From Bolinopsis microptera (lineage: Eukaryota > Ctenophora > Tentaculata > Lobata > Bolinopsidae), in contig NC_087073.1 in the NCBI RefSeq assembly GCF_026151205.1, positions 6,965,001-7,029,000 on the forward strand: a DNA stretch of 64,000 nt, in the 5' to 3' direction. This document shows positions 5,900-63,170 of this stretch, in pieces (within the stretch, counting starts at the first letter, position 1; each line of letters starts with the position of its first letter). A program made the translations under genes and the position numbers. The notes beneath the pieces are model-generated. The model was not told where the DNA came from. It saw only the letters and a program-made list of their open reading frames with translations, and searched no databases.

Positions 5900-6960
5900 C
5901 CTACCAGTACCACGTACCACCATGACTCTGCAGTATACTTATAGTATTATGTACCTCATGTGAAGCGTTTCCTTCTAGTCGAGTGGACTCTAATCAGCAG
6001 CTAGTAAATAAATGCCTTTTAAACGGGTATTACCAGAGTATTCCCAGCATGGGATCCCGAAACTATTCCCTGTCCACTGAATGTGGATGGTAGGGATCAG
6101 AGTAACGTATCTATATCGTCATACAATCGCACCAATGATCACAATAGCGAAGCACATATTTAACTATTGGCTCGGACTCTACGTCGCCTTTAAGCCGGAG
6201 CACATCTTTTAAAACCAGTAACAAGATTACACCAACGGCAATCAACTTGTGTCTTGCAGCAGCTACCATGAATAAAATCCTCCAACCGCTATATTACATA
6301 CTGTCCCAACGTCACGTACTGAACGTTAATAATTTCTGTTGAATTTGACGCAAATGATTGTCATAGATATCGTCTGATGGCGCCAGATGATCCACATAAA
6401 CGGTGCCATCAATCTTCAGATTCGATCTCATTGATACCACCATGTGCGTAGGATCTACTTAACCATGACAGTACTGCATTATCACCGCTTATTAAAATGA
6501 AGCCGAAACCTCTCGAGCTCCAATATTATTACCATCCGTAACAGTATGAAAAGCATAATACTGTCAGTCGTTACCCTAAGTGACATGTAATTCCACGTAA
6601 ACTACTGGAATAACGTGCTACTAACGGTAACAGTACCTGGTACGGGATCTACAAGTGCCAACTTTAACTAACTACCGCGACGAGTAGTAAGGTTCTTACT
6701 TTTGCGTAATATTGAAGTGACTGTGCTTATGGTAGAAATTGAGATATGTGTTGCCAAGCCAATTCCATTCTCTGATTGTGGTTCAATATATACGTATAAT
6801 TATATATACAACAATGTTTACCTCAAAATAAAATGAGAAGAATTAAAAATAAAATTTGGAATCTGGGTGGAATTTAGATCCAATATTTTATTACTATTGA
6901 AATAATCCAAAAGTTGCTGTTGTTATATTATATATAAGTTGTGCGATAAAAAAAGGTAAA
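5900..6960. other. Non-coding stretch
   Basis: After the last minisatellite units, no open frame, RNA gene or repeat boundary is convincing. The last part (6780-6960) is very AT-rich and lies immediately 5' of the oxygenase gene, so it probably includes its promoter; no specific site can be named. Confidence 0.4.
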
Positions 6961-7007
6961 TTGAATATATTATTATGTTAATTATTCAAACCTCAATTAC
7001 AAGGGTC

Positions 7008-8337
7008 ATGTCAGAGATCAAACCAGTTTCAATCTCATATCTCGACTTCAAAGCCGGAAAAGACTTTACTGAAGACGTTTCCGCCGCTTTTGGAGCGAAT
7101 GGCCTTGGTTTAATTGTAATACGGGACCTACCCGATTTCCAAAAGGAGAGAATCGCTGCCCTGAGAACAATCAGAAAGTTCGCAAATCTATCCGAAGAGA
7201 TAAAAGATAAATACACCCACTCAGAGAGCAACTATAGGTATGTGATACTGTCCACTTTAAACAAACTAGTAATTGAGATCATGATAACAATCCGACCTTT
7301 TTTCTCTCGTTCCGTCAAAACACGGTTTTTAGGACAATCGCTCATTCTCATCTTGTTTATTCAATTCACTAAGCACTTTACCACCTCTTTGAGCAGCAAA
7401 CAAGTTGTATTTTGATTAAGTAATGATATTGTGACATGAAATGAAAATGTGACTGAGTACATTGACAAGCACTCAAATCATATATTCCCGCAGTTTTGGC
7501 TGGAGTCATGGCAAGGAGAAGATGAGGAACGGAGTCCCGGACACGGCCAAAGGGTCCTACTACGCGAACACACTAGGTGACACCACCACAGATGATCAGT
7601 ACCTGAAGGATACATTCCCGGAAATGTACTCTGACAATGTGTGGCCCTCAGAGGATTTACCCGAACTGGAGCCAGCATTCAAGAACATGTCCCATATCCA
7701 GGTGGGTGTAGGCTACATGATCTGCGAACTGTTTGACAAATATCTGCGTGGTCTCACTAACGGGCTGCACTCCGCTGGGCACTTCCTGGACATGCTGAAG
7801 AAAGGGACGGCTTGTAAGGGTCGTCTCCTTCACTACTTCCCTGCTCCCCCAGCTGCTAACAAGTCTGAGGATGGTCTGTGTGGGTGGCATCTTGATCACG
7901 GTGGTATCACCATCCTCACCTGTCCTCTTTACCTGGACCTAGAGGGTAACGAGATACCAGCCCCCTCTGACTGTGGTCTACATATTAAACATCCTAGTGA
8001 CGGGAGCATTGTCAAGGTCACAATTCCTGCTGACTGTTTGGTTGTGCAACTTGGAGAGTCCTTCCAGTACCTCAGTGGTGGTCATCTCCGGGCCACAGCT
8101 CACTGCGTCAAATCCTCCAAAACCCCTGACATCACTCGAGAAACCCTGGCTTGTTTTATGGACTGGCTGCCGGAAGAGACCATGAAACTCCCCGAGTACA
8201 CACGACCCTACGCGGAGGTGGTCCACACGCCTTTCCTGCCAGAGGGAGTTCCAGATTTGGAGGGGAGGATGAAGGGAGTCAAACATTACAGGGACTTTTA
8301 TTCGAACACTTTCAAAGCCTATCACAGTGAGAATTAA
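7008..8337 (+). CDS. 2-oxoglutarate/Fe(II)-dependent oxygenase, two exons
   Basis: Exons 7008-7237 and 7494-8337 are joined by an intron with a tatag|gtatgt donor and a cccgcag acceptor; phase is kept and the product is about 357 residues. The C-terminal half shows the iron site of the isopenicillin-N-synthase-like fold: WHLDHG supplies His-x-Asp, GGHLRATAHCV the distal His, and RET, a little later, the 2-oxoglutarate Arg. The N-terminal part resembles the DIOX_N region. Such enzymes hydroxylate or oxidise small substrates in the cytosol; the substrate is unknown here. I chose ATG 7008 (MSEIKP); an upstream in-frame ATG at 6975 would add 11 residues. Nothing suggests decay. Confidence 0.85.
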
Positions 8338-10870: not shown

Positions 10871-13800
10871 TCATATCAGCATCGTGTTATTTTCTACGTT
10901 TACTTCTGCAGTCGGTACCCACTCCTTTATTTTAAGTGTGTCCTCTGTGGAACAGAAATAGTAAACCTCAGCGTTATTTATCATCCAGTCGGATTCGAAG
11001 CTTTTCACATAAGCTCCTAGTCCGTAAAAAGCGAGCATGTCCCCGTTACACATATCTACAGGAAGTTCTACTCCTTTAGCAATAACATCATTCTCTTCAT
11101 CAGAATAGCCGTATACCGTAGCCTCTACTTCTCCCTTAGTACTTTTGATTTTGGCGGTGTAAAAGAGAACCTTAGGGACGAACTTCTCACTAGGCTTTAT
11201 TCTGACGTGACTGAAACTTTGAAAGATGGACTCATTAACATAGTAGTACACTTTCCTATTATCCTTGGAACCTAAACGTCTGACACCGATGATGGTGGCA
11301 GCTACCGACACCGAGTCCTTGACAAAGTATTCCCCCGGATCCACAATGATGTTTATTCCTCCAGATTTGGAATTTCCTCCTGGCATCTTCCGGAAGGAAG
11401 TTAAAAAGTTCCTGTTGATAGTTCCCGCCAATTCAATAAAGCTATCCTCGTCCGTGAGATCTCTGTCTATATTGAATTTTACAAATACAATGCCCATGTT
11501 ATAGTTCAGATTCTTTTCGGCGTATTGAAATATGTTTCGGATCATTGTGCAGGTCTCCTTGATGTCCTTGCTATCACTCGGCTCCTTGATGACACTGACA
11601 ACTCCTGAATGATAAATCATGGTTACTGTTAATGCTAAAAATAATTTATAGAGGCAACCTTAAAAGGTTATCATCGTGTAAATGCCATAGTTACCATAGT
11701 TACCATAGTTACCATAGTTACCATAGTTACCATAGTTACCATACCTACCATGATTACACAACCTTCATTAACCATATTTGAATTTGATAGATGAATAAGT
11801 TTTCTTATCAGCTCTACAAACCTTCCACTTTAAGTCCCAACATCCGTGCAGTGTTAAGGATATCCTGACAACTCTGGGAGTTACGTCCGTACTTTGGGAT
11901 AGGTTTATTTTCGGAAACTATACACGCTCGGATGAGGAGCTTCGCTTCCTTGTACTCCTTCCTGGTTGAGTCATTGTAAATTTATATCTCCACTAAAATC
12001 AAGTACTTTAAAGCTCTGTTAATTGAAATTAAAGCCAGATTATAAGATTGTACGTTTACATTTCTCGGTATTCCAGTACGTTATAATGCCCTGTAATTAA
12101 AGCAAGTTCAACACTGATCGTAATTGTAGAGAAGCCCGGCTGGGTGTCATTGCTGCACTTATATTATATTAATCATGATTAGTTGCGAATGAAAAGTTGC
12201 TGATGTCAAACTGAAATTAGAGCGGATACCGGATTTTGTGCAGTTCAAATGCTGAGTCGAAAGCAATGTATCCAATGTTGTTCTCTTTTGCGTATTTTAG
12301 ATGGGAATTTTGCTTGACTGTTTGTCCGAAGATGATTCTTGAAGGATCAGCTCCGAGGTCTATCAAATCCTTCAGTTCCTTTTTGCTCAGAGCGTAAAAC
12401 CAACATCCTGATATGCAAATTAATCGTTAGTCGTCGACGCATACAAATCCATATAATTGAAAAAGGACATGTTCCTTCAATAAAGTCTGTTCGAATTGAG
12501 GACACTCGACATTTTATCTCGTGCAGAATTGACCTTCTGTTGATTACTATAATTATAAAGAATGCAGAGTGATATTGGTATTACTATTAGTTGTTATTTG
12601 TTCGTAAATTCTATTGGGTCTGTCACATTCAACAATAAAATATATATTATTATGGGTTCTAGACAAATTGTCCTAAGTGATGGCATCTTATCAGATAATA
12701 TATCCTACGGAATTGAGCAACATAGTCTGAGTATCAGTAACTACGAAGCTTGACCTCCTGAGGTGATATGATCCGATCATCATTTATCTACAACCAAGTA
12801 CAACCTTTAGTTAATTTGAAATCATATAACCTGATCCGTTGAGGACCTTTATGACGGGGGTCAAGCCGGAAATCATCATACAGTCAGCTGCAGGTTCTAT
12901 CTCTGGTATGTGTTCCCTCCACCAAAGTATTCGTTGTCTTATTACTCCTAGGTTCAGACCCTGAACACAAAATTCGTGTCATCATCCATGATACCATAAA
13001 AAGCTTATATTGAGCTTGGAATTTTCCTAACACAAAGATGCAATCAAAGCGGGTGTTTTTTAAACTTACAGGTTACCTAACACAATTCCCAAATCCAAAA
13101 AGATGCAAATATGGCTTTAAAAATGACACGCTTCAATTGTCTTTTGTTGTCAAAGTAAAAAGCAGAAAAGCTAGTGCAGTCTGTCTTAGTTCACACCAAC
13201 ATACCGGACCTCAAAGACCATGTTACCATGTTACCTGTTCACAACGTACCGCAGTCTAAAGTAACATAAAGTCAAGTATTAAGGGGACATACACCAAAAC
13301 CTTTTTTGCCGGGACCCGGGATTTGACTTCATATTATGAAAGTAAAGATTACAACTGTAAGATTTGAGGCATTGAAAATTTTTTTTGAGAGTACGCACAT
13401 TCGAAAAAAAAATTATTTTCTTTTTCGAAAGTTTTGGAAATTTTCAGAAGTCTGTCACTGTAATACCGATATTTCAGTCATTTTAAACGTTGTTTGGCTG
13501 ATTTTTTAACTGAACATTATTTACAATCCGTACAAGAAGCCCTTCAAAGGATTTTATAATTAAAGAATAGATGACGAAGTTACAGACCAAACAAGGTCGA
13601 GAGAAGCAGAATTGAAATTTTTGTAAAAATCAAAGTTGTATATTTTACCATTCACCCAGGTCATAAGATATCGCTTCACAAATTCTTGTGAGTGTAGCTG
13701 ATGATCATATCCAACTTTGTGGAACAGGATTTCTCTCAATTTTGAGTTTTAAGGTATGAAATGTGGCCTCAAACGACTTAGTAAAATTCATCGTAAAAAA

Positions 13801-15312: not shown

Positions 15313-15991
15313 CTGAAATGTCAATCAGTGGGCATTTAAAAAATATTTCGAGTCAAATAAGGCTCTTTTCTGTACCGCGAGCTGGAGTGATTTGCAGGAT
15401 ATGACGGAGACAGTTCCTGAGACACGGATATTGTAACACCTCGAGCTATCAAACGGACATTGTTAAATAATTTGTACTGTCTGCAAAACAGGTGAGAGTT
15501 GCCACAATCACATGTACTAGTTTTAGATCATTCAAAAAGAATCGTCGTTGTGATGACTTCACTTTGAAATCCGAAGTTGCAAAGTGCCGCTCCTAAAAAG
15601 GCCGCCAGCTGTTTTTGGTCACGGGAACAACTAAAAGTGCAACATCAGACAAACAACACTTAAATACTTCGTCATAAACACCCAATCAAAGAAGACAAAG
15701 GGTTACTTTTTGAAACTAAGAAATGCCGATATATACTAGATATTTGTGCCGATGAGACGTTGTTGATAAGTTAACTAAAGTTAGCAGATCATGCTCATAA
15801 TGAAATGTTACTGAGCCCGAGATACAACTTTTACATCGTCAGAAACACATACTGTGATGTTAAGAATTTAAAGGATTTAAAAGTGGTTATTTAAAAGTAA
15901 AAGTAACAAAAAGGATGGGCGTACTGAGATCGTGAAATGTGTACAATGTATTCGATGTCGTCATTAATATTTTCTAACTTGAAGGTGTAAC

Positions 15992-16142
15992 ACTGTAACT
16001 GTAACTGTAACTGTAACTGTAACTGTAACTGTAACTGTAACTGTAACTGTAACTGTAACTGTAACTGTAACTGTAACTGTAACTGTAACTGTAACTGTAA
16101 CTGTAACTGTAACTGTAACTGTAACTGTAACTGTAACTGTAA
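15992..16142. repeat. (actgta)n microsatellite, about 25 units
   Basis: An uninterrupted array of the hexamer ctgtaa. It is open in several frames on the minus strand as Gln-Leu or Tyr-Ser dipeptide runs, which are artefacts. Confidence 0.95.
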
Positions 16143-16414
16143 TAGCTTACATTGACATATTTGTATATTATATGGCCAATGCACACGAATCGATCAAACT
16201 AAACGGTCGAAAACGGATGTCTAACGTATTTCAAACGTTTAAAAATCACCATCTCGGTCCCGAGATTTGCTCAGAAAGCGGTTAAGACTGATTTGTAAAT
16301 ATCACAAAAATGTTTTCAGTTTGGGTATAACTAAAATTAAAACTTGTTTTTATAAAATCTAACTAAATCGCGTACTGTTTTCAAGTCTCATTTAATGATC
16401 CCTCAAAAACATTA

Positions 16415-16490: not shown

Positions 16491-19400
16491 TTTCCAGGAA
16501 AATCAGTTTACGAAGGAATGTTTAAGGAAAACAAGAAATAGAAAAACACAATTTCCCTCAACTAAAATTTCGATCAGTCTCCTTGATTCTGTTAACTAAC
16601 ATGAATATTCAATATCACAATTATTACAAACAAGGAGATGCATGAATTCAAATAAAAAGAAACTTTAGTCTTCACCGAATACTAAACAGAGGGAGGTGAT
16701 ACAAACTACAGTGAAGCATATTTAATGAAACAAGGTGTGACCAAACAGTTAGCTTTATAAAACTGATGACATCAGAAAAGCAAGTTCATGCTTCAAGTGG
16801 GTGATCTGACTTGGCAAGCTAGCATGATTGGCGCGCGGCAATTCTTGTACAGTGCATTAACCTTTGGTTATGTAAGCACTATAGAGATGGTATGTAGTAC
16901 TTTTAGTAGGACTGACGCGCCCTCAACCCTCGTCGTAATGAATCCTGGACTGAATACTGAACTGCACTTTTAATGCTTCGTCATAAGTATGTTGACCGCG
17001 ACTAGCAGACTCAAGTATGATTATGGTAATGTTTAAAAAGTCAAAAGTCTTTAAGTTTTTATACTTGAAAGACAGCCCATTAAGCATTAATTTGACAAAA
17101 CATCAATTTGATAGACAACACATTTTGAATGCCACGCTGAAATGGAAGCTAGTACATCGTCTTAACACTTAATAAGACAAAATAATTCTACTCAACAGAG
17201 ACAGAAGACAAATTAATCGACTAACTAGCAAAAATGTAAGGACAAGCATTTTAATTAGAATAAGTAGAACGACTAGGGTTGACATTAGCAACCCTAACAA
17301 CGACATAGTAAACAAAACATGGGCAGGGCTAAACACGAGGATAACTGTACTGTTAAAAGGCAGAATTTATAGCTGCCTTCTATCCTTCACTTTTACAATT
17401 ATTAACGCTGCTTTTAGAATTAGATTGCCGACCCGGCTATCTAGTGGCTATAGTCCTAGAGATTGTAGTGAAGCTAACAACTCCCCTGGTCTCCGATGAC
17501 AGCAAATATCAAAAAAGGGGCAAAGACTACAAAGTACAAAAACAAGTAGGGGATAACTATGTACTGTTAAACTACGCAATAATATTACAGAGGTGCATGT
17601 TTAAGAATTTGACCAAGAGGAACCCACTGAACTGCGGCCCGACCTCCAACTCCGGGAACTCCGGTCACACCTACTTAAAATCATCAAATTCAAATCCGTC
17701 CAAAGCATCTGCTTAAAGTAGACTTGAAATGGAAGCTCGTTTGAGACCATTTAAGGTGTTCAGGCAAATTTTAAGTAGATAAGGAGGTCAGTGAAAATAT
17801 ACAACCGTTAGAATACAGCTTCAGAAACTATGGTAACTGTGAGCTAGAGCTGTCGACTAACCTTCTCTATGTGGTTTATTGCAGAAACTTGTAAGAGTTT
17901 CTGGGTTGCCTGAATCCAAACATGCATCTCAACGATATAAGCTTATACTCAGCAGTGTAAGCACTAAGCAGGTATAGGGTTTTGTTGTTCTACATCTGGA
18001 AGTTATCCTAAAGTCGGTGTACGTGCTTAAGAGTGCAACAAAGCACTGGGGAGGTCGAACAAGCTGGGACAAGTTAACTAGTTAAACGGTTTTATATGTA
18101 AGACTTCCAACGGAAAAATAGGAAACATCTCCATCAATTTTGCAACAGTAACAGGTTATCCCCATTCAATGTTGATAAAGGCTGAAGTTTATTACAAGAC
18201 CTCGAAAGTGGTCTCTTCAAACTGTCACATTAACTATATAAGGACGATAAGTAAGGTTAATGCTCGAGAAACAATTCTAAGGATTGTCTCTCCTTTAAAA
18301 GGAATTCACTTCAAATTAGAGCGCAAGCCCGATTAACTATTTCTTATTAGAAATGCGTGCAGAAGATGACTTTTGGGGCTTCACCTTTCAATAGTATGGT
18401 CCCTGAAGTATCTGACAACCAGACGTAGGGTTGAAGGGTAACGAACAAATTGATACAATTGTAATAACGGAATTCAAAGCATTGCAATTTATAGTACTAC
18501 AAAGTTAACACTACAATTATACGTCTTGGTATACTCGTTTAATCATTTGATTTCAGTTAAACAAAAGTGGACACGAACGTTTGTCTTTTAAACAATTTTC
18601 CCATATCAATATTAAGGAAACCTTTCGCCACATCTGAAAATTTGTCGACGTTTTCGTGAAAATAAATTAAACCTCCGAAGTCCTAAGGACATTATTCCTT
18701 GCCAAACGTTGACCAAATACTGATCGTTATTGAGGAGGCTATAATTATAATTATATGCGTTTAATATGATACAGACATATCTTATTATTTGAGTCTGTTT
18801 TAATTGCCCGGTCATACGGCCCAGATCGGATTATCATATTATCACCTATTTATCGATATATATGGCCTGAATAATAACGGCATAATGCATATTGTCATTT
18901 GTCATAAGTTACGAAATATTTGATAAGACGATTGGAGCGGTTTGACTTTGAGGAATCGGATCAATGGACTACCGAACATTCGTCGATAGAAACTAGTCGA
19001 AACGCAAAGCTTCTGCCAACTATTCATGGTATTTTGATCGGCCGTTGTCAGAGAGGAACAAGCTGACACCCAGGGCTTTGTGACTATGTTCTAAACCCAG
19101 ACCCAGATACTATGATTAATGAAACTAATCCGATTAGTGCCGTGTGACCGAGCTATTAATATAAGGGGAAATTTGTAAATTGACTCAGCTTAGTTAGCGT
19201 CGAGTTCATACACCTCATAATATGAAACTGTATCTTAGTTTAGGAAATTTTAAAATCTTAAATTACTGGATTACTTAAAAGTTTTCCAGTAAAATGTCAA
19301 AAATGAGTTAAAACTTTAAGGTGGTATATGTTTATTGTTCAACTGTAAGGTTAGCATTAAGGGCGATAAAATTAAGGACTAGAACTTTAGGTATCTAAGA

Positions 19401-20272
19401 TATCGGGTAAAGCTCCAAAATAAAGCTTTTAAAAGTTTTAGATAGATAGAAAAAAAATATGGATGATCTCAACATAAACCGTTTTTAAACGTTAAAATTT
19501 GGTGTGAACTTTTGTAGGTGAAAATTCGGTACGCCCAACCAGCAGCAAAAACTTTTTGTCAAAGAAGTTTTATAAAGGAATTTTAATGTATGTAATCCCT
19601 AGATCCACCAACTATTAGGTCCAGTAACAGCTCCGGATTTTTCAAACAATTGAAAGTTTCCGTATACTTCAGTTAACACAAGTCTAAAACTTTACATAAC
19701 TCTAAAAAGTTCCATATTATAAAACTAATGCAGTAACTATAAAAAAAACCATGCGGACGAACATGCGCTATAGAGTATAAATATTAATTCTTAAGTTTTC
19801 TCACTAAAAATTCCGCATGTCGTCAATACGTCTAACATGATGACATAATAAACCCGCCCTTTACAGCTCATTTGCTACACACAGGTATGTTCTAAAAATA
19901 GTGTTTTGCAAGTAACAAGTAAAAACCAGGTGATAAAAATCCGTAAAACTGCGTATCCGAATGCTTGTAAGTCATCACTGAGACCCAGAAGTTTACCGAG
20001 CGTTCTCTATAATCCATATCTCCGGGTAGAGTTTGTTTCCGTAGTCGTATAACCAACTTTTCCTTCCAGAACTATATGAACTTTGTTTGGAATTTAATTT
20101 TTTAAAGACGTTAACACCCTTGAAGCAGACTTGCAGTTCAATAATTTACGAAGTTCAATGAGTCGTTGAAAGCAAGAGGTGTTGCGCAGCACTACCGGAT
20201 AATTTCTAACTGATGTTAGACTGACTGTAGTAAGGGCGTCATGGTTATTAGGTACGTGTTACCATGGTTACG

Positions 20273-23200
20273 TCAGCATGAGAATTTGTCTACGTTAGAG
20301 GAGAAACGGAGCTGTTGTTGCTGTTGCTGATGCTGCTTAGATAACTGTCTTCCCATTACTTTCCGTCTTTCCTGCTGAAAACAGGTTCATTTATTACCAA
20401 ACTCTCAGACTTAACGAATAGTGAACTGATATTCATAAATCTCTGATAAAATCTTGCGCTTAATGCAATTAATAGAGTAACAGAATAAGAACTAACCCTG
20501 GGACTTGTAGAGGTTCTGCTCCTGGAGTCACTGGAGCTGATAAGGGAGTAGTCATCGAACCAGAACTGTGTGGGTGGCATCACGTGATCAGACACCTGAT
20601 CCCCAGACTGGTCCTCGTGGGAGGAGGGGGACACGGACCGGGAGGAGCCGGCCATTATGTTCCTTAACGCTCCGTGCGCAGACTTGGAGATCTGGGGTTA
20701 TTAGTTAGATAGTTATATCACTATCTATACAGTTATTAGTTAGATAGTAGTAGATCATTGTAACACTATTTTATAATCAGACACTATAAACAGCCCATAT
20801 CTGATCGAGTGTGGTGTACTTTTATAAATATTATTATTTATAAATATTAAGGTTTTACTCACAGATTTGTCGGTGTGAAGAGAAAGAGATCTGAGCAGAG
20901 GGACAGCCCCAAACTCCCTCAACATGGTCTGGTCAGGAGGGGATCTGGCGGACAAGTTCCAGAGTGCTCCACACGACATGGCTATTACCGTGTCATTGGT
21001 ACTTTGCAGGAAGTCCACTAGCCGAGGCAACACTCCTGAATCTCGGAGAATTCTTCTGTATTGGCCCACTTGGGCTATGTGACTGAAGAGTCAGGGTTTA
21101 CAAATGTGGTCATGTATGTAGGAGGAGAGTTTCAATAAAATACCAGATTTCATTCGTGTTGAAAAGGATTAACTTATACAAAGTCGATATTATATTGTTT
21201 CGATAACGCTCAATTCAAGTTTGTGAATATGTTGTTTTCGATTAAATCACATTATTACGTACATCGAGGAATATTGAATAATTAATTATGGTCAAGTCAT
21301 GATTTTAAAGATCCGGAAAATTTCGGGAACAGTCGCAATTCTCCACATTTATTTGGAATTAATGAAGTACGGACACCACCAAACCAGAAGCCATTCAACC
21401 GTATCAAAAAACAATTGAGTAAATATTGTAACACGGAATACCTTACGCTATTTACATCGCCACGCCGCGCGCATTCTGGAAGCTAACGACGTGAGTGACA
21501 CGCCGATTAGACAAGTGAGCTCTAAATTTGCAATAAAGCTTGTCAAGGGACATACCTGCTAATATTCCTAAGAATACCCAGGGTGTTTTCTAGCACCACA
21601 GTGTTCCTCTGTAGAGGCTGCTTTACCAGCACTGCGATGAGTTCCAACCCCTCACTGCACAGCGCCTGACGAAGAAACACGTGTTAACAACATGTTAGCA
21701 TGACTATTTGTGGGCAAAACACGCACCTTGGTTAAACCCACGCGACCGTAAAGAGTACACATAAGGTGTGCTAATTCACTGCAATTCCGTTTTACAATTT
21801 TTACACGAGGAGCCTCACCTCTTTATTAGCGGCGTTGTGAGCACTGAGATTCCAGAGCGAGCTCGTCAGTACTTTCATAGTACTAGCATCACTGCAACGT
21901 CGCCCCACGTCTATCAGCACAGAACAAACTTGGCAATGTGCCAAATTCAGCTTGGTCTGAGAACTTGCTCTCCAGCTCAAGTTCCTAAACAGACTGGTGA
22001 CGACCCTGACTACGTCCGGAGACTCGTTACCGTGAAGTAGTCCTAACAACACCTCGAGGAAGGGGGTTATGTGGGACAGGGCCGTTTTAACATGCTGGTC
22101 CCCGCAGGTTAGGTTGGTGAGGGCCGTACAGCCGTACTTTACCACCTCACTCAGGGAGATCTGGGTGGAGTTGTGCTCAGGGAAGGAGAAAGCTATTGGT
22201 TTATACAGGGCACACAGTGCGATATACTCTGAGATTGCAAATATCACCCCGATATCGTTCATTACAGTTCTGTACTCCTCGTCAAAGGACAGTTTGGTGA
22301 GAATGATAAGAGTTTTTAAAGGCTGAGTGTTAGGAAGTGGGGTATCAGGATCAGTTCTGAGTTTAATGTACGCGTCCATCAGTCCCTCCAAACTCCTGAC
22401 TAGTGTGGACGCGTGTCTGTGAACTTTATAATGCTTCCTTCCCGTCTCTCCCAGATTCCTGTAAACATCTGAAATGGCTTTCATGCTCTGTGTCTTCCTT
22501 TCTCGTTTAGCCAAGTGGAAGATGTGTCCGAGTGGCATTGTGCCACACCCATGACAGGACTCAGGGTACATGGTAGCTACCAGTGTGTCCAGACCCTCTG
22601 AGTTGAGGATCCGTTCTGCGTTCTCCGGTACTCCGGACATTGTTATCAGTGTGTCGAACATAGCGTCCAGTGAAGACAGCTGGTCATCTCTGGGGAGAAG
22701 GTAAGTTAGTGATATTGAGGCTGTTTGGAAACTGATTAGAACAACTTAACTAGTCTATGACACTTAACACAATCCAACTTTGAGTAGCTCTAATTACAGT
22801 ACATTGAGTGAGTAAACTGAGAAAATAACAAGCAAAAGCAGACAAAATATAAAATCCAGACAAGTTCAGCACAGACCTAGCCCCAGAGAGATGAGCGGAA
22901 GAATGGCGACTAGAAGTTGAGGACCTGCTTGACTCGTACCTCGTGGAGTGCCCCTGGGTCCGGGCAGGATATCTACCATCTGATGGAGTAATTGGGTAAT
23001 TTATTGGGTAATTTATTGGGCAATTAATTGGATGATTACTCTAATGATCACTGAAAACAGGTCACCAAATATCATGCTTCCGTTTAGATTTGTTGTGTCA
23101 ATTAGGGACATGCACCTTGCTAATTAATTGGATACAGATATTAAGACAACTCATTAAGGAAATCAAATTGATGTTCCATGGGAAAGTCGAATAAAGCCAA

Positions 23201-26200
23201 TTTGTGGAAAGAGCAGTGAGTCTAAAGTAAGAGAGAGAGAGAGACAACACTACAATTTTCCGCTGAGAAAAAAATATATATGTTAAGACGGTTACTGGGC
23301 TATGTTAATAATAATAATGCAGCTTGATCTAATCAGTGGGTCAATCGTGTTTCTAGAAGGTTAAACTTAAGAAAGTTTGCAGGAAAGTTTTAAGTTTCCA
23401 TAAAATAAATAATATTCTGATTCCTACTAACATTTGAGATAACTAAATGTTTACAATTATATCACGATGGCCACATTTCACCTTTTTAAACTATTAGTGG
23501 TAGAACGTGATAAATAAAAGTTTGTATGGTCATTTAGTAAGTTTTAACGTGTCTGTCAGCACATGTTTCCATCTTTCTTAAAGTCTCATACTGGGCCATT
23601 TTAAAAGCTTTAAGTCCTGTTAGAAATCAAATTTGGTTGGGTTTCTCGAAAATAGCGCCTATGAGTTTTGTTTACTTTACAGTTTCCATAGCAGGCATAC
23701 CTAGGCGACGTTCTCAAGAGAAAATTTGGTAAAAATAAAATATACTTTGCTTTATGCAGTAAATTCCATGCCGATTTGTGACCACTCCAACGTTAATCTA
23801 TATCATGTGCCCCGATTGTATATACAATGAAACCTACTTAACAGTCAGTGATGGAAATAACTCTTTTTGAACAGTAGACCACATAAAATTACATAATATT
23901 TTATTCTCATCAATTGTTAAGCATCATGTTTAAATTAAATTATTTGAAGAATTATTCCCCTCCCTCAAATTGAGCCCATATTTCTAAGGCATCCGTACTA
24001 CTCAACATAAATATTTGAATTGCCATACCACCCACGGTCATATAAGACGCAACTTAAGGACTTTAGTCAATTAATAACCAATTACTACACATGATTTAGA
24101 CAAATAGTAAAAGCCTCAAATCTGTAGAATTATGAGGTCAAATTACACAATTGGTAGTTTGTGGGAATATTTTTATGCAGGGAACTTAAAAAACTTACTT
24201 TGAAACTTAATATTCGACGAAATATGACAAATCATGGAATTAATTCAGACTAAGATGAATGAGTTGCCGGCAATAACCATGGTCAGGTTCGAAACTGGCG
24301 GTGAGAACAAAGAAGTTGTACCAATCACTAACTTGATTCTGATTCAGAGGGAAGATCGCGATTAACTCTAGACGAACTGGAATCTGATCTGAGACCCTTA
24401 TCATCAGCTTTGTCTAGCTGGGAACTGTGTACGGTCGACCTTGATCCTCCTGAACCCTGAAATATGGAGATAAGCTACAAGTAAGCAATGTCATGTCAGC
24501 TATTTAAGCTGTTCTATTACACTCTCTAGCTGAACTGGATCAGTCACTCGGCCGGCCGGCCGGATCGCATCGATCGATCGATCGGGCGAAGAAAAACGCG
24601 CATACGCGCGCGTCACGTTGTTTATTCGCGTATATAATTATAGTAAATATTTGATCGCGCAATCCATAAGGCAAGATCAAATTCTCCCCAGTTATGAAGT
24701 GTCCTTGAACTTCATTATTTCAGACTCACTAGGAGACACTGAAACATGATGTTGGAACCTGGCAATTGACCATCACAAAGCCAAATGCTGTTAAGTATAG
24801 TCAAGAAGTAGTTTTAAGAGTAGCAACTAATTTGCTCACTGAATGAATACTCTTCCTTGAAGCTGAAAGCTCCCTGGATACGAGAGTGAAAGCATCTCGG
24901 CATAGAAACGTAAGATACACGACAGCAGGTGTTTTCTGAATCAAATATCAGCACAGTTTCTGGGGATCACATTATACTCTCTACTGACAATATTACACAG
25001 AATTTATTGCACACGAACACGAATGTAACGACTTAATTCATTGCTCCTTGAGTTCTACTGCACACAAATTAGTTTCTTACCGATTACATAATATAATACT
25101 CAATCTGAGACGAGGACTGAGACACTAATGTTGGATAAAAATAAAATTCATCACGTAATTCCGTTACCAGTTTCCAAATATTTACTGCAAACTTAACTCG
25201 TGCTAGTCTGGGTGTTCGTTATCATTTTAGGGCACGACCACGCTACTAATTAGGAAAATTAACAAATTGTTTATTATAAGCCGGAGCATGATGTCTCACA
25301 GGTAACCTTCAGTGTATTTCAGAGTAATCTAATATCTGGCATGTTCCCTTGATTACATTAGAAGAGAGAGACGTGCAATATGAAAAGTAGAGCCAAGTAC
25401 TCGAGCAAAATGATCAGCCAATGTCGCACTGTAAGAATGACGTCATGTTATGCGAATTAGTTGAAATGGTGGGAATTGTGGTGGAGGTATATCACGTTAC
25501 TCGTTCCAATTAATAAATCACATCACATGTCAATCTGTAACCAATAAGTCTAACAAAGCTAACAAACAAGTAATATATGAGGTAAGTTACGTATATAGTA
25601 AGTCAACTTGAATAGGACAATAGACGCAAGATTACATTACTTGTTCGACTTTTAACATCATTCGTAACACGATATGTTCACACACTTTACACTGGAACTC
25701 AATGAGAATGATCCAGAGCTATAGGGCATTAGGGCGCATTGCTCGAACAATCTTTACGCTTCATGATTTGACTTTTAACTGAGATATGAATAATTCATGT
25801 TGAGAGTTTAAAACGTTCAGCAAGAAGAATTATAAAATAGGCATTAAGTTGTTCGAGCTGGTTGCTCTGTTGTTAATCTGCCATTTTGAATAATGTTGGA
25901 TATTTTGGTAGAAAGTTCCAGAAGTGAAAATACTGGCTAATGAGCTGTCAAGCATAACATTTCAGTGTTAAACCTTATATATTGAGTTTAACACACAAAT
26001 AAAGGAACTGACAATAACTGCTCTCCTACTGATAAGGGTCATACAAATTAGGATTAAATTTAAAGTCATGATTTATTCTTATTTCATTTCATTTCATTTC
26101 AAGTTCGGCTGGTGCGGAATCGCACTATTTACATTTCGCACCACTTTTATTTTTACTCTATCGGTCGTTCTCCTAACATACTGTTCGGAACAATTTTGGA

Positions 26201-28609
26201 AGCTGTTAATGTAAGTCTATGTTCCACCCCAACGAAGATTTGTAACTCTTTCATAGGAAATTTTGGTACTGGCACTGCTGGTATGAGATAAGATGGTTGT
26301 AAATTAAAATTTCTTGTCCATTTGAAATCGAATCTGCCCATTGAAAAACAAACTACTTTCAATTTTATAATAGTTACTGAATTTGCCGCACATTTGTCGC
26401 ACAATTACCGCTTTTTAGCTCGTGCAGTACCACAATGCCCTATTAGCAAAGAAGGAAGAAAATTGTTCCTAATTGTAAATAATCAGTGTAGATCCACGTG
26501 TCTTAGAGCTGGAGCTACAATCAGAAAGTAAAACGTGCGAAGTCCTTCTAACACGGGTGTAATGATATGTGTTCGATAATAAATATTCCCGAATAAAGCG
26601 AATTATGTATGTATTTATTTAATGGTCATGGGTCATGTTAAAGTTTATAAATCAAGAGGCTTGCATATAATGAACATATTGGTCACACGGGTGCAGAGTT
26701 GAGTCTGTACGGAACCTAGTAGTTTCAGATCCTTGTTTAACTTGCCGTACAGCAAGGTCATCCACTACTTTAGCCCGGCGAGGCACATAACTCCCTCTAC
26801 AACTATGCCACGAAGGAGGTATCACCGACTTCAAACAAGATCGCTGTGTGTAGCATTTTTTAAAGATGTAATCAAGGCGTGTTTATTAGATTTTTGCCGT
26901 GTCGCTGTAACCTAATTGTACCCTTAACTAAGGTATTTTTACGCGATTACGAAGTAAAACTCTGTCTCTCTTACCGGTCTATCTCCTTCTGTAGATCTAG
27001 ATCTGGATACCTGAAACAATGAAGAATTTGATAATTTTTATGAGTATTAAAAAAGAACAAGTTCCCGAAAAGCATATGTTCTGAAAACAATAGGAAACCT
27101 TTAAATAATTATTATTGATAGGGCCGGATCGGTCTTATTTTAGACTCCTTCGCGAACAGACTCTTAATCCTACTTGTGGTACGAACTACATTATACAGTC
27201 TACAAAGACAAATAAAGAATGTAGCGTAGAAAGAATGTGGCTTACCGAAGTGACATGTGTTTTATCTGAACCTGATCTCGACCTGAGCAATGTGAAATGT
27301 TAGGAATGCGGTAAGCAACATGGCAAGCACCTCGTGGTGGCTACATTGTATGTAATAGTCAATAACCCGACAAAAAGGGGCCGCTTAAGATAGAACATGT
27401 ACAGCAGTTGTACAGTGCAGTGTATGTATACTGTATAGCAGTTGTACAGTGCAGTGTATGTATACTGTATAGCAGTTGTACAGTGCAGTGTATGTATACT
27501 GTATAGCAGTTGTACAGTGCAGTGTATGTATACTGTATAGCAGTTGTACAGTGCAGTGTATGTATACTGTATAGCAGTTGTTCAGTGCAGTGTATGTATA
27601 CTGTATAGCAGTTGCTCAGTGCAGTGTATGTATACTGTATAGCAGTTGTTCAGTGCAGTGTATGTATACTGTATAGCAGTTGTTCAGTGCAGTGTATGTA
27701 TACTGTATAGCAGTTGTACAGTGCAGTGTATGTATACTGTATAGCAGTTGTACAGTGCAGTGTATGTATACTGTATAGCAGTTGTATGTAGTGCAGTGTA
27801 TGTATATTGTATAGCAGTTGTTCAGTGCAGTGTATGTATATTGTATAGCAGTTGTTCAGTGCAGTGTAAGTATACTGTATATAGACTATAGAGGTTAGAG
27901 CTCATTATCCCTGCTTGTTAAAACACAAAACGAGAAGGAATTTATACATACACGCTATACTCCAACCTCATTTCAAGGCTAACAAGTAACACTATTATTA
28001 TTATATTGATTTTACATCAAAGTGGTTTAATAATACTCACTCTAATATCAAGTTGTTATACAGCATTCGTTGTTTCCCTGTAAAAAGAAAGTTATATATG
28101 ATTGTGTTGTCTGCTAGGATAAGTAATAATACTGTGCTACTGATCATGTAACACGTACATAATTATATATAATTATATAATATTCAAGGCAAAGTCTGCG
28201 TCTGAGTCACACAGGTATTTACCAAAAATAACATTGTATCATGGGTATTGGGTGTGTCCTTTAAATTCAAAATGCGAATTAAAGCTTGTACGCTAATTAT
28301 ATGTTATGGGTGATAACGAGAAATGTATCCTATTTCTGACGAGTATTGGCTTTTCTAAGCAAACTTAGTGAGACAAAATGGTTTAATCAGGCAAAATGAA
28401 AAGCTTCAATACGTTTTGAAATAAAAGAAACAACTGCAAGTATTTATTTAACATGATCCGCAATTGAGGAGAAAAATAATATCATCTGAAACATGAGAAA
28501 TATTACATTGGTTTCCATTAGCTTTTTCGGACATGACACTCTCATCGTCTTTAAAGGAAGTAGCCTTGACTTTGTCCAGGATCTCTGACAGATCTAGATC
28601 GTTAGCCAT
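20273..28609 (-). CDS. APC: APC-like armadillo protein lacking the C-terminal half, 11 exons
   Basis: Exons (minus): 28507-28609, 28041-28077, 27246-27282, 26975-27010, 24333-24456, 22877-22979, 21819-22689, 21556-21665, 20863-21082, 20497-20691, 20273-20374. All phases join, giving 645 residues. Residues about 147-560 are the APC armadillo domain: LSFDEEYRTVMNDIGVIFAI, GCTALTNLTCGD, VVTSLFRNLSWRA, SSLWNLSAHNAANKE, GILRNIS, CGALWNLSARSPPDQ and GALRNIMA all have close counterparts in APC. The N-terminus is a short Ser/Arg-rich segment spread over tiny exons, with no long coiled coil. After the last repeat only about 85 Ser/Gln-rich residues follow before a stop. No 15- or 20-residue beta-catenin repeats, SAMP motifs or basic domain were seen, against about 2,840 residues in human APC. 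The core is certain; the terminal exons are inferred. Confidence 0.85.
23220..23250. repeat. Short GA-rich run in an APC intron
   Basis: A short (ga)n tract, taagagagagagagagac. The rest of this intron holds nothing recognisable. Confidence 0.7.
24540..24620. repeat. GC-rich simple palindromic patch
   Basis: Consecutive runs of ggcc, then atcg, then gcgc/acgcg in an otherwise AT-rich APC intron. They are self-complementary over short distances. Confidence 0.7.
27403..27882. repeat. 34-bp minisatellite, about 14 units, in an APC intron
   Basis: The unit runs agcagttgtacagtgcagtg followed by tatgtatactgtat. Adjacent copies differ by single bases (tacag/ttcag/ctcag) and one carries a small insertion. 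It lies between the second and third coding exons of the APC-like gene. Confidence 0.95.
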
Positions 28610-42474: not shown

Positions 42475-43239
42475 TCATTCCTGGTTCAGATCTTTCTGTA
42501 GATTCCATTCCAGGAGTGAGTTGTTGGTGATGGCGGTGTATCCTTTGGTTGGCGGGGTATCGGGAAACGTCTCCAAAAATCGAGCAAGTGATACCTTGAA
42601 GGGTCCTAGGGCAGTTAAACTGTTCACTTGTCGTGGGAGGAGGTTCCATAGTCTCGCTGCATTCACTCCAAAGGAATTCTCGTAATGAGTGGCCACTGAT
42701 CGTTGCGATTTGTTGTTCAGTGGTGGGACTATGGCTTTTATGCCATGTCGAGCGTTTTCCTTGAATACCATGTTGATGTCATTTGGAGCAAGGTCGTTTG
42801 CCATCTTCCATGTATGGATCAGGATGTATCGCTCTCTCCGCCTCTGCAGGGAGAGCAGGTCCAGCTTCTTAAGACGGTCCCAATAGTCCAATTGCTGACA
42901 ACCTAAGATACGGCGAGTGTAGTTCCTCTGAACATTTTCGATTGCTTCTATATCTGTGATTTTGCTGGGGTTCCAGACCGGGCAACAGTATTCTAGCCTG
43001 CTCCTCACCATTGTTTTGAAAAGGGTGAGCATCAGGAAAGGTGATCTGTCACTGAAGACACTGAAGACCCACGATGCCATTTTCTTAGCAGTTTTCAGCA
43101 TCTGATGGATATGGGGCGTCCACGAGCAGTCATTTGAGAGGAGTACTCCAAGGTCTCTGACTGTTTGCGTTGGTTCGATAATTTCCCCGTTTGTTGAGCT
43201 GTAGCTGTAGTCTTCGTTGGAGAAGGGGAGTTCTCTCAA
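42475..43239 (-). pseudogene. LINE (jockey/CR1-like) reverse transcriptase C-terminal fragment
   Basis: A 254-codon frame has VRDLGVLLSNDCSWTPHIHQ, MVRSRLEYCCPVWNP and LWNLLPRQVNSLTALGPFK, the usual order after the RT catalytic core of jockey, CR1 and related LINEs. The YADD catalytic box and endonuclease are absent upstream, so it is a 5'-truncated copy. The frame has few lesions, suggesting fairly recent insertion. Confidence 0.85.
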
Positions 43240-43799
43240 TAGCAGGGATTTATTCAGCTTGTAACTGTTCTAGCTGTAAGATAGATCAGCATCCAGCATG
43301 GTTGGTCACTAGTGGAGTGTTCTTGTAGGGTTTCTCTGTAGGACCAGCTGTGCAGTGAACAGGAGAAGATTCTGTGGTAGTTATTGTATAATACCTGGCA
43401 ATTTGGAAATTGAGGGTCGCAGGTGCTGGCCACCCTTGCCTAAAAGGCTGTACTTTCTCCGTGTAAGAGAGACCTAACTTTGGTGTCTGTGCTTCTATTT
43501 GAGCAGCGAGGAAAGTGATACCTGGTGTTATCGAGAGGAAATATATAAGTAACTGAGACAGTAACTACACAATCTATGATAATGATAACTAGTGAAAAGT
43601 CTCTATATTAGTCAAATTTAGACAATGATAATGATAACTAGAATGATATATTAGTCAATAGCTTACCAAAATACCCACAAGGCACAGCACACACTCACAC
43701 TCACTGCTGAGACTAGCAAAGAGAAATATTACACTACTTGAGCAGCTCAGCGAGGAAAGAACAGTTGGTATAGTGATTGTTCTTAGGAGGCTAGCTAGG

Positions 43800-50180: not shown

Positions 50181-50834
50181 TTACATTAAAGGCAAATGTA
50201 AATATTGGAAGGATTCTTCCAACAGCACAAAGTTCGGTAGCTCCAACTCGATCGGCATCTTGTTTTTCATCGCCTCAACAACTGCCGTGTTATTATGGCT
50301 CCTCTTGAAATGTGTATACAGGGGTCCAAAGGACGCCCACTCGGACAGTGAAACGTCTTTGCCACATAAGGGGCATACGGCCACTACTGGATTTAGGACA
50401 TTGTAATCCGTCCCAAATGTGGCCGTGAACGACGACCGATTTTTCATCAACGCTTTCCTAAAGAAAGGCGTCAAGCAGCTAGCGTCCATGTGTGCCATCA
50501 CCTTCAGTCTTTTCCCCCGCAACTGACACTTTGAAACCTGTCTTTTATTGGTTCTGTACACTGTTGTTTGAGTTATTTCTTCCCTGTTCGGCACCTCATC
50601 CTTGAATCCGGACAGAGCGGGTAAGTTTGTTGATATCCAGAACTTGGTGCCAAATTCAATTCTTAGTACAGCCTCGGAAGTTGCTCCGACAACTCTTTTC
50701 AGATTTAAGATAAATTCTTTGGTTGTCTGCCCATACAGCCAAGGGACTAAACCATTTCCCTTTCTTTCATTAACCTTGTTGCGGACACTATATACCAAAG
50801 GACTACAATAGTTAACCGTGCTTGACATTATCGA
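50181..50834 (-). CDS. Unknown protein with C2H2-like finger, terminal exon
   Basis: A single exon of 217 residues begins after a clear aaattttcag acceptor (reading SIMSSTVNYCSPLV) and runs to a stop. Near the C-terminus CPLCGKDVSLSEW...YTHFKRSHN fits a C-x2-C...H-x4-H finger. The centre (LRIEFGTKFWISTNLPAL) is not recognised. It sits among transposon fragments on the same strand, so it may be part of a transposon-encoded protein. The frame has no lesions. Confidence 0.5.
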   Translation of the reverse strand, partial: SIMSSTVNYCSPLVYSVRNKVNERKGNGLVPWLYGQTTKEFILNLKRVVGATSEAVLRIEFGTKFWISTNLPALSGFKDEVPNREEITQTTVYRTNKRQVSKCQLRGKRLKVMAHMDASCLTPFFRKALMKNRSSFTATFGTDYNVLNPVVAVCPLCGKDVSLSEWASFGPLYTHFKRSHNNTAVVEAMKNKMPIELELPNFVLLEESFQYLHLPLM

Positions 50835-51099
50835 CTGAAAATTTGAATTATGAATAGTTATTATTAAATGCAATGTAAATTAAACAGAAGCTTGGACCAA
50901 GAGATCGATAAACGTATTTATTCTAATTACTTAATTATTACAATCTGCAATGAACTGTAAAGCGATTATCTCAAAATCTTAATTTTTTGGACTTTAAAAT
51001 CTATCTCCTCATACATTTTTTGAACTAAACCCTTCATACTTGGCAGGTATACATTTTGATTTAGGCCTCAGAAGTCAAATTGCTTACAATTACACATCC

Positions 51100-52392: not shown

Positions 52393-52965
52393 TTACCCCA
52401 TATCCATTAAAAATGCCACCGATAGAATAAAATTCTTGTCCGTCATATGACGGAGACAAGACTCCGCTGTATTATCTGGAACCAAGCCTTGCAGGGCAGC
52501 AGCAATTGCTCTGTAATTGTTGAAAAAAGATCTATAAACTTTCTCACAGTCAACGACAAATTTCTTTGACTTGAAAATTTTTGGTTTAAGTAGAGCAAGT
52601 TCGATGGTCTCTGCTGCCCTAATCAAATATTCATACGAATTGCTGTACTGCACAGCTTTTACGATTTCTTGAAGCCACTTTACGTTTTTTTCAAGAAACG
52701 GTGCCTTCTTAAACCCATTCAAAACAGCTCGTTCAATAACGTGAGCAGGGTCCCATATCTCATAATGTTTGCCCACAGCCTTGTTTATGAGGTTGAGATC
52801 GACAAAATGTCGTAATATGACTAGATTCACATACTCACCGTCAATACAAAACCCAACAAAACGTTTCTCAGTGTGACGTGATGATATCTTGTGTTTGATA
52901 AGCAAGTCAATTATATTCTGAGCTAATCCGCTTCCAGATTTATCATCGCATGCTGGATGACCCAA
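52393..52965 (-). pseudogene. hAT/KIAA1586-like transposase-derived fragment
   Basis: A 190-codon frame has FVGFCIDGEYVNLVILRHF, then YEIWDPAHVIERAVLNGF and VKWLQEIVKAVQYSNSYEYL. This matches the order in hAT-derived proteins where a D-G-A-S-V block precedes a C-x-A-H-x-L-E-L block. The catalytic pattern is altered and both ends are missing. Confidence 0.5.
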
Positions 52966-53112
52966 GTAAATATTGATGATTAGTAGTGCAGTAGGATCAT
53001 CAGGGGAAATATTGACAAGTCAAATAAAACACTTCAATATAATAAAAATATTAAAAACAAATATAAAATAAAAGCGAAATACACCATGAAAACATCTTCT
53101 TAAGACAGAAGC

Positions 53113-62626: not shown

Positions 62627-63170
62627 TCATACCACGAGGACTGCAGGGGTCTGTAGCTTTATTATCATCTTCTTTACTTTGTTTACAACTAGCTTTACGC
62701 CGCTCTGTTCGAAAATTGAGTGTTTGACGACTAGTGCCAAAACGTGAAGGAAACAAGATATCCAGTCCACATCAGTGAAAGCTCGTCTCATAATTGCTGC
62801 GGTGTCTGAAACAATGCACATGCAGTGGAGTCTGTCTACTGAGAGTCCCCACTTTTCCAGCACAAAGACAACCCTGCCTTTTATTGATTCTCCAGTATGT
62901 GACTCATTATAAGGAAGAAATCTCAAAACCAACATTTTCCTAACAAAATCTTCAGTGATAAAATGTACTGTAAGTCCTAAATAAGAGTCTAATGCGAGAG
63001 AAGACCACACATCACAGGTCACGGAATAGTGTCCTTCTTTCAAAGCAATTAAGAGGGACTCAAATAGCTCTTTCTGAACCTCTCTATACAATTTCGGCAT
63101 TAGAGTCGTCCTGACAACCTTTAATATCGTGTAGGGAGTGGTATATAAGTCTTGCAACTCAGACCTACCT
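62627..63170 (-). pseudogene. hAT (ZBED-like) transposase core fragment
   Basis: One long frame, entered by an acceptor near 63170 and left by a gtatga donor near 62630, carries HYSVTCDVWSSLALDSYLGL, TVHFITEDF, then IVSDTAAIMRRAF and ISCFLHVLALVVKHSI. These are the first Asp region (T-x-D-x-W-S), the D-x-A-x-N-M block (Asn changed to Ile) and the C-x-x-H-x-L-x-L block of hAT transposases. The BED finger and dimerisation domain are not in the window. Probably a relic. Confidence 0.75.

Follow-up and report, generated by a model that had tools for sequence, protein, structure and literature searches.

Human APC goes on past its armadillo domain with 15-aa repeats (15R), 20-aa repeats (20R), SAMP motifs and basic regions. 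Short or partial forms of APC are already in print for ctenophores and sponges. In the ctenophore Mnemiopsis leidyi, Pang et al. (2010; PMC2959043) described an armadillo match only, with the other APC domains reported missing, from a partial scaffold match with two ARM (E = 2e-17). Truncated APC has been described in sponges and Nematostella (PMC5684314), which for Nematostella conflicts with Table 2 of Pang et al., where APC is entered as present, and not as partial, in both Nematostella and Trichoplax. In humans, the S811* protein of COLO-320DM cells consists of the armadillo domain and a short tail, lacks 15R, 20R and SAMP, and enters reconstituted destruction complexes, where it recruits beta-catenin (PMC8403986). 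How it does so without the known binding sites is termed unknown in the same paper, and the mode of action of APC in the destruction complex is still unsettled. An animal whose sole APC consists of the armadillo domain is a natural test of that domain acting alone. Here we add to these reports a complete ctenophore gene model, including its 3' end.

The host is most likely a ctenophore: a glutamate-receptor exon is identical at 90/117 residues to ML032222a, presumably a Mnemiopsis gene, and ligand-binding pieces of two glutamate receptors served to place the organism, whereas a PDB search with another such receptor did not. The window (the whole 64-kb stretch of DNA analyzed) contains no N. 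On its minus strand, from 28609 to 20273, we rebuilt the APC gene independently from the sequence and obtained 11 exons and 645 codons, identical in coordinates and length to the model of the first-pass annotation, which had also described the phases as consistent. All ten introns are GT-AG, the incoming exon phases (0-1-2-0-0-1-2-0-2-0-0) agree with one another, and the frame is open across all 11 exons. Homology supports exons 7–10 only, whereas exons 1–6 and 11 were modeled from splice signals and open frames. Exon 1 (28507–28609, residues 1–34) begins with the start codon at 28609–28607 and closes with a GT donor; because the in-frame TAG located four codons upstream could be part of a splice acceptor, the coding part may extend upstream of this ATG. 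Exons 2 (28041–28077, 37 nt), 3 (27246–27282, 37 nt) and 4 (26975–27010, 36 nt), together with exons 5 (24333–24456) and 6 (22877–22979), which encode a serine-rich linker, were placed by AG/GT signals and phase, and a family profile search with residues 1–147 gave no match to any family. The armadillo domain starts in exon 7 (21819–22689, residues ~148–437) and continues through exon 8 (21556–21665), both anchored by PDB matches to APC and by groove mapping, and exon 9 (20863–21082), anchored by PDB and Pfam Arm matches. It ends at residue 563, the limit of the PDB match, in exon 10 (20497–20691), which also begins a serine-rich tail and carries a GT donor in phase 0. Exon 11 (20273–20374) runs from an AG acceptor through an open frame encoding a polar tail to a TGA at 20275–20273. 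From end to end, the protein has a short polar N-terminus, then the armadillo domain, then a polar tail of 82 residues.

The armadillo assignment exceeds chance: residues 269–563 align with that domain of human APC (structures such as 3nmw and 7f6m) at 40% identity over 285 aligned residues (114/285 identical). Among the best 60 of 144 PDB matches found by phmmer, APC chains came top (E = 2e-48, 168 bits), followed by designed armadillo proteins at no more than 80 bits (5mfm_C, at 74.5, is labeled importin alpha); the best evidently natural non-APC match was catenin delta-1, at 42 bits. Pfam Arm scored 67.5 bits on the 645-residue protein, bearing out the earlier description of the armadillo repeats as clear, and APC_rep (PF18797) reached 17.3 bits at residues 265–290, under its cut-off of 27. 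When the genome was searched at E <= 0.01, eight of the nine matches were the APC gene itself and the ninth was a 23%-identity stretch on contig C4. Judged from sequence, by its armadillo best match and as the sole APC locus found in the genome, the ctenophore gene is an APC orthologue.

To compare the peptide-binding groove, we mapped 14 ligand-contact residues of human APC, taken from PMC4860839, onto the ctenophore alignment. The equivalents of human F458, N507, G511, K516, R549, N550, W553, W593 and N594 lie in exon 7 and that of N641 in exon 8, and the substitutions from human to ctenophore are M503T, F510C, N679M and M717S. In all, 10/14 groove residues are identical to those of human APC, compared with 114/285 across the domain (P = 0.015, a value that overstates specificity because the groove asparagines are partly general to armadillo proteins). 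A stricter groove-ligand consensus had no match when the loci of Axin and beta-catenin were translated and scanned. The sequence DQSGDQVS at residue 574, in the APC tail, is reminiscent of SYSGDALY, a groove ligand from Amer1-A2 (assembled from the residues given in PMC4860839); its shuffle value of 0.9% is post hoc, because the likeness was noticed first and the pattern then widened to fit.

The protein ends 82 residues past the aligned armadillo domain, in line with the earlier estimate of about 85. By alignment numbering, human S811* extends 77 residues past human position 733, a tail of similar length; the human protein, truncated in cancer cells, retains the N-terminus of human APC, whereas the ctenophore N-terminus matches no family. 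Regular expressions for the strict 20-aa-repeat cores, SAMP and 15-aa motifs found none in the six frames of the 64-kb window, which extends to the whole window an absence previously noted for the following 5 kb, and a relaxed 20-aa-like pattern matched once, at minus-strand position 523, outside the APC gene. From 20270 down to 11700, the longest minus-strand frame is 100 aa, inside a TTACAG repeat, and the mean of the longest frames in 200 mononucleotide shuffles of the same region is also 100 aa. Therefore, no long C-terminal exon is masked by one wrong base, and a single erroneous stop was ruled out.

We then compared five APC-specific Pfam families with the 265-Mb genome, a test subject to profile sensitivity and run without an APC-bearing positive-control genome. 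None of the five families (PF05924, PF05923, PF05972, PF05956 and PF16689) had a credible match. The best SAMP match (PF05924) scored 15.1 bits on C1, below the cut-off of 19.6, and two of 14 control genomes likewise had matches below the cut-off. For the 20-aa repeats (PF05923), three matches fell short of the cut-off, all on C2 and outside the window, the best at 18.3 bits against 19.9; the search of other loci for SAMP motifs and 20-residue repeats suggested at the outset thus yielded none that was credible. The basic domain (PF05956) had no genome match at E <= 10, and the N-terminal coiled coil (PF16689) gave two matches, both below threshold and likewise on C2 beyond the window. The 15-aa repeats (PF05972) matched once, on C11, at 20.2 bits (cut-off 19.4; E = 0.41; 10/15 positions); as the frame between stops is 19 aa there, we took this match to be due to chance. 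Pfam profiles can miss short motifs when the phylum is divergent. Since one APC locus was found, and none of the five APC-specific families is credible elsewhere in the genome, the split gene that had been offered as an alternative is unsupported, as is a second APC locus.

Pang et al. (PMC2959043) reported no axin in Mnemiopsis, whereas an Axin-like candidate is present here on C3, with an RGS match at 6756021–6756404 and a DIX match at 6767303–6767395 (profile positions 41–71 of 77) on the same strand. The RGS, a GSK3-binding-like helix and the partial DIX share one strand within 11.4 kb, and we infer that the RGS and DIX belong to one Axin gene; the other DIX matches, on C10 and C13, are on contigs without RGS matches. 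The sole PDB match of the putative helix at E <= 10 is Axin-1 (8vmg_C, E = 1.2); its position between the RGS and DIX favors a GSK3-binding role. The RGS is divergent: its top PDB match is RGS18 (E = 0.035), and the longer exon had no match at E <= 0.001. The beta-catenin-binding helix of Axin (PF08833) had three sub-threshold genome matches, on C6, C9 and C1, and none on C3; a ctenophore Axin without this domain is already mentioned in a 2025 paper (PMC12412431). The genome encodes beta-catenin, in which the DSGxxS degron spans a GT-AG intron. The CTNNB1_binding (TCF) profile had no match anywhere in the genome, from which we draw no inference. The Arm-repeat genome search matched, besides beta-catenin, loci that we take to be importin-alpha-like, delta-catenin-like and SPAG6-like.

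The reading we favor, with a confidence just short of even, is that this APC is a natural armadillo-only protein, probably never truncated, which serves as a peptide-binding adaptor joining Axin in beta-catenin destruction. The long C-terminal region with its beta-catenin and Axin motifs would probably have been added later in other animals. The armadillo repeats would contact Axin near its GSK3-binding region, and APC would assist Axin polymers in presenting degron-bearing beta-catenin to GSK3 and CK1, with APC itself not binding beta-catenin. Consistent with such a contact, Axin associates with the isolated armadillo repeats of both human APC and fly APC2, in the fly case through an Axin fragment holding the GSK3-binding site, and the beta-catenin sites of APC are described as dispensable for its mechanistic role (PMC4568445). 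The first-pass annotation had allowed that the short form is the normal protein, which accords with the single locus, the window free of N, the lack of credible matches to the five families elsewhere and the ctenophore and sponge papers. It had further suggested a destruction complex lacking APC contacts with both Axin and beta-catenin. The part concerning direct beta-catenin contact is supported, since within profile sensitivity neither scaffold has a recognizable site; the part concerning Axin is too strong, because in flies and humans the armadillo repeats suffice for association with Axin, and human S811* enters destruction complexes.

However, S811* does not stimulate beta-catenin phosphorylation or ubiquitylation (PMC8403986), and APC lacking SAMPs lowers beta-catenin poorly (PMC4568445); therefore, an APC reduced to its armadillo domain may have no activity in destruction. 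It is a serious, if lesser, possibility that the short APC acts outside beta-catenin destruction, as an armadillo adaptor whose partners are confined to the cytoskeleton or adhesion, while GSK3 and CK1 phosphorylate beta-catenin with Axin alone or free of a scaffold. The protein has no recognizable beta-catenin or Axin-RGS contact motif, and its groove for peptides of the Asef, Amer1 and Sam68 type is mostly kept, as this alternative would have it, but the association of isolated fly and human armadillo repeats with Axin speaks against it. So would Nematostella, where APC is a Wnt inhibitor and its mutants resemble GSK3 inhibition (PMC8241978; PMC4895019), provided that the Nematostella APC is short, on which the papers conflict; if it is long, these mutants are uninformative on a short APC. 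The truncated APCs of sponges and Nematostella belong to other phyla and are set beside the ctenophore protein by their published descriptions.

Alternatively, the gene model could be incomplete, with alternative 3' exons encoding a divergent, unrecognized C-terminal region. The APC tail has no homology, and poly(A)-like hexamers are scattered (first ATTAAA at 20098, first AATAAA at 19336), but the short, shuffle-like downstream frames, the absence of strict motifs from the window and of credible profile matches from the genome, the stop that unspliced read-through past exon 10 meets after 46 codons and the report of an armadillo match alone in Mnemiopsis (PMC2959043) make this improbable. Least probable is that the assembly is wrong here, or that the gene is a pseudogene or a decayed duplicate of a long APC: although the assembly comprises 232 contigs, includes stretches that read N and is perhaps incomplete, the window has no N, all 11 exons are open and no second APC locus was found at E <= 0.01.

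In the favored reading, that of a natural armadillo-only adaptor, the ctenophore protein resembles APC as truncated in human colon cancers yet is apparently the normal protein of an animal, and for Wnt pathway evolution, a cancer-type truncation of APC may resemble the ancestral state. The armadillo contact is described as one of two APC-Axin contacts in flies and humans. It is conceivable, though rather doubtful, that this contact, at the GSK3 region, was the first APC-Axin interface and is still the sole one in a ctenophore destruction complex in which neither APC nor Axin has a recognizable beta-catenin site; if so, an older machine would later have gained the SAMP-RGS and 15R/20R contacts.

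An independent rebuild on the minus strand reproduced the APC homologue described in the first-pass annotation, giving the same 11 exons and 645 codons followed by TGA. All 10 introns had GT-AG boundaries and every exon phase was consistent. Homology falls in exons 7 (22689-21819), 8 (21665-21556), 9 (21082-20863) and 10 (20691-20497). Exons 1 (28609-28507), 2 (28077-28041), 3 (27282-27246), 4 (27010-26975), 5 (24456-24333), 6 (22979-22877) and 11 (20374-20273, ending in TGA) were based on splice signals and frame, because homology support was limited to residues 265-563; Pfam returned no family match for the APC tail or N-terminus. A tandem array of ~34-base units (tgctatacagtatacatacactgcactgtacaac), spotted by eye, occupies 27388-27900 in the intron that separates exon 2 from exon 3.

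Among the best 60 of 144 PDB matches, APC armadillo chains ranked first (E = 2e-48, ctenophore residues 269-563), followed by designed armadillo proteins (at most 80 bits) and catenin delta-1 (42 bits). The ctenophore and human armadillo domains were identical at 114 of 285 aligned residues, and Pfam placed Arm over and APC_rep under its cut-off. Eight of the nine genome matches to APC at E <= 0.01 were fragments of the same gene, indicating one locus; the ninth was a stretch on contig C4 with 23% identity.

The strict patterns for the 20-aa core, SAMP and the 15-aa repeat matched nowhere in six frames of the whole 64 kb; a relaxed 20-aa-like pattern matched once, distant from the APC gene. 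Downstream of APC to 11700, no minus-strand frame exceeded 100 aa, and shuffles gave the same; a TTACAG hexamer array lies at 15985-16146, with three minus-strand frames open through it. The suggestion that SAMP motifs and 20-residue repeats might reside at another locus was not borne out: across 264,652,675 bases in 232 contigs (the window being on C2), SAMP (PF05924), APC_r (PF05923) and APC_N_CC (PF16689) gave only sub-threshold matches outside the window, and APC_basic (PF05956) gave none, although such misses do not prove absence and divergent motifs can escape short profiles. The single APC_15aa (PF05972) match, barely above cut-off in a 19-aa frame, was read as chance. Sub-threshold SAMP, APC_r, 15aa and basic matches also occurred in some of 14 control genomes, at the level chance would produce; the controls included no genome with a genuine APC as a positive control for the motif searches.

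Contig C3 carries, on one strand, exons for RGS (6756021-6756404) and for part of DIX (6767303-6767395), and an exon between them resembles the GSK3-binding helix (sole PDB match Axin-1, E = 1.2). Judged from these domains, the locus is probably Axin. Its RGS is divergent (best PDB match RGS18, E = 0.035; none at E <= 0.001). The Axin beta-catenin-binding helix (PF08833) had no credible match in the genome, in agreement with the ctenophore Axin without this domain mentioned in PMC12412431; the early Mnemiopsis survey of Pang et al. (PMC2959043) found no axin. The beta-catenin gene lies on C6 (E = 2e-41; about 19287000-19299300). An exon pair farther upstream on the same strand gives FIDSGIASGSTTS spanning a GT-AG intron, a degron split by an intron, which we infer to belong to this gene; it agrees with the conserved Mnemiopsis phosphorylation sites reported in PMC12412431. 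A long glutamine/proline-rich frame 3′ of beta-catenin, also on that strand, is probably its last exon.

To compare the ligand groove, we took 14 residues from the APC-Amer1 structure paper (PMC4860839); a single offset onto the human chain fitted 14/14. Ten are identical in ctenophore APC (F458, N507, G511, K516, R549, N550, W553, W593, N594 and N641) and four are substituted (M503T, F510C, N679M and M717S). Given overall identity, P = 0.015 for at least 10 identical residues, a weak test because some groove residues are common to armadillo repeats in general. In the tail, at residue 574 (exon 10), DQSGDQVS resembles the Amer1-A2 ligand, a likeness spotted post hoc, and is a possible self-ligand of the groove.

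We tentatively favour, at slightly under an even chance, ctenophore APC acting as an armadillo-only Axin partner over its having no role in destruction, which seems somewhat less likely. Work on the Nematostella complex by Sun et al. (bioRxiv 2024) may already put forward the former view. According to PMC4568445, fly and human armadillo repeats by themselves associate with Axin, directly or indirectly, and the Axin fragment partnering fly APC2 repeats includes the GSK3 site. Human APC truncated at S811*, with a tail about as long as the ctenophore one, joins reconstituted complexes and recruits beta-catenin; it stimulates neither phosphorylation nor ubiquitylation (PMC8403986). Nematostella mutants identify APC as a pathway inhibitor (PMC8241978; PMC4895019), a support that is conditional because PMC5684314 describes that APC as truncated, whereas Table 2 of Pang et al. 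scores it present, not partial. APC of short or partial form has already been described from non-bilaterians (PMC2959043 and PMC5684314); among the open-licence PMC papers listed, none contained the ctenophore gene model itself.

Elsewhere in the window, an ornithine/arginine decarboxylase-like gene (10871-12426, minus strand) has its N-terminal Pfam domain in one frame and its C-terminal one in another, and 2-oxoglutarate/Fe(II) oxygenase-like frames (6960-8337, plus strand) fall under Pfam cut-offs. Four long minus-strand frames (42475-43269, 50181-50879, 52393-53019 and 62627-63169), lacking Pfam matches at E <= 0.01, look like transposable-element remains. In a PDB search, a glutamate-receptor exon matched ML032222a (90/117 identical, E = 7e-58), then 4zdm (7e-31) and glutamate receptor 2 (2e-16); ML032222a and 4zdm, presumably from Mnemiopsis leidyi and Pleurobrachia, were likewise the top two matches of a second glutamate receptor. 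These matches point to a ctenophore that is a relative of Mnemiopsis yet distinct from it. The glutamate-receptor ligand-binding family has 32 matches over many contigs of the searched genome, many in long open frames and clustered on C3 and C12.
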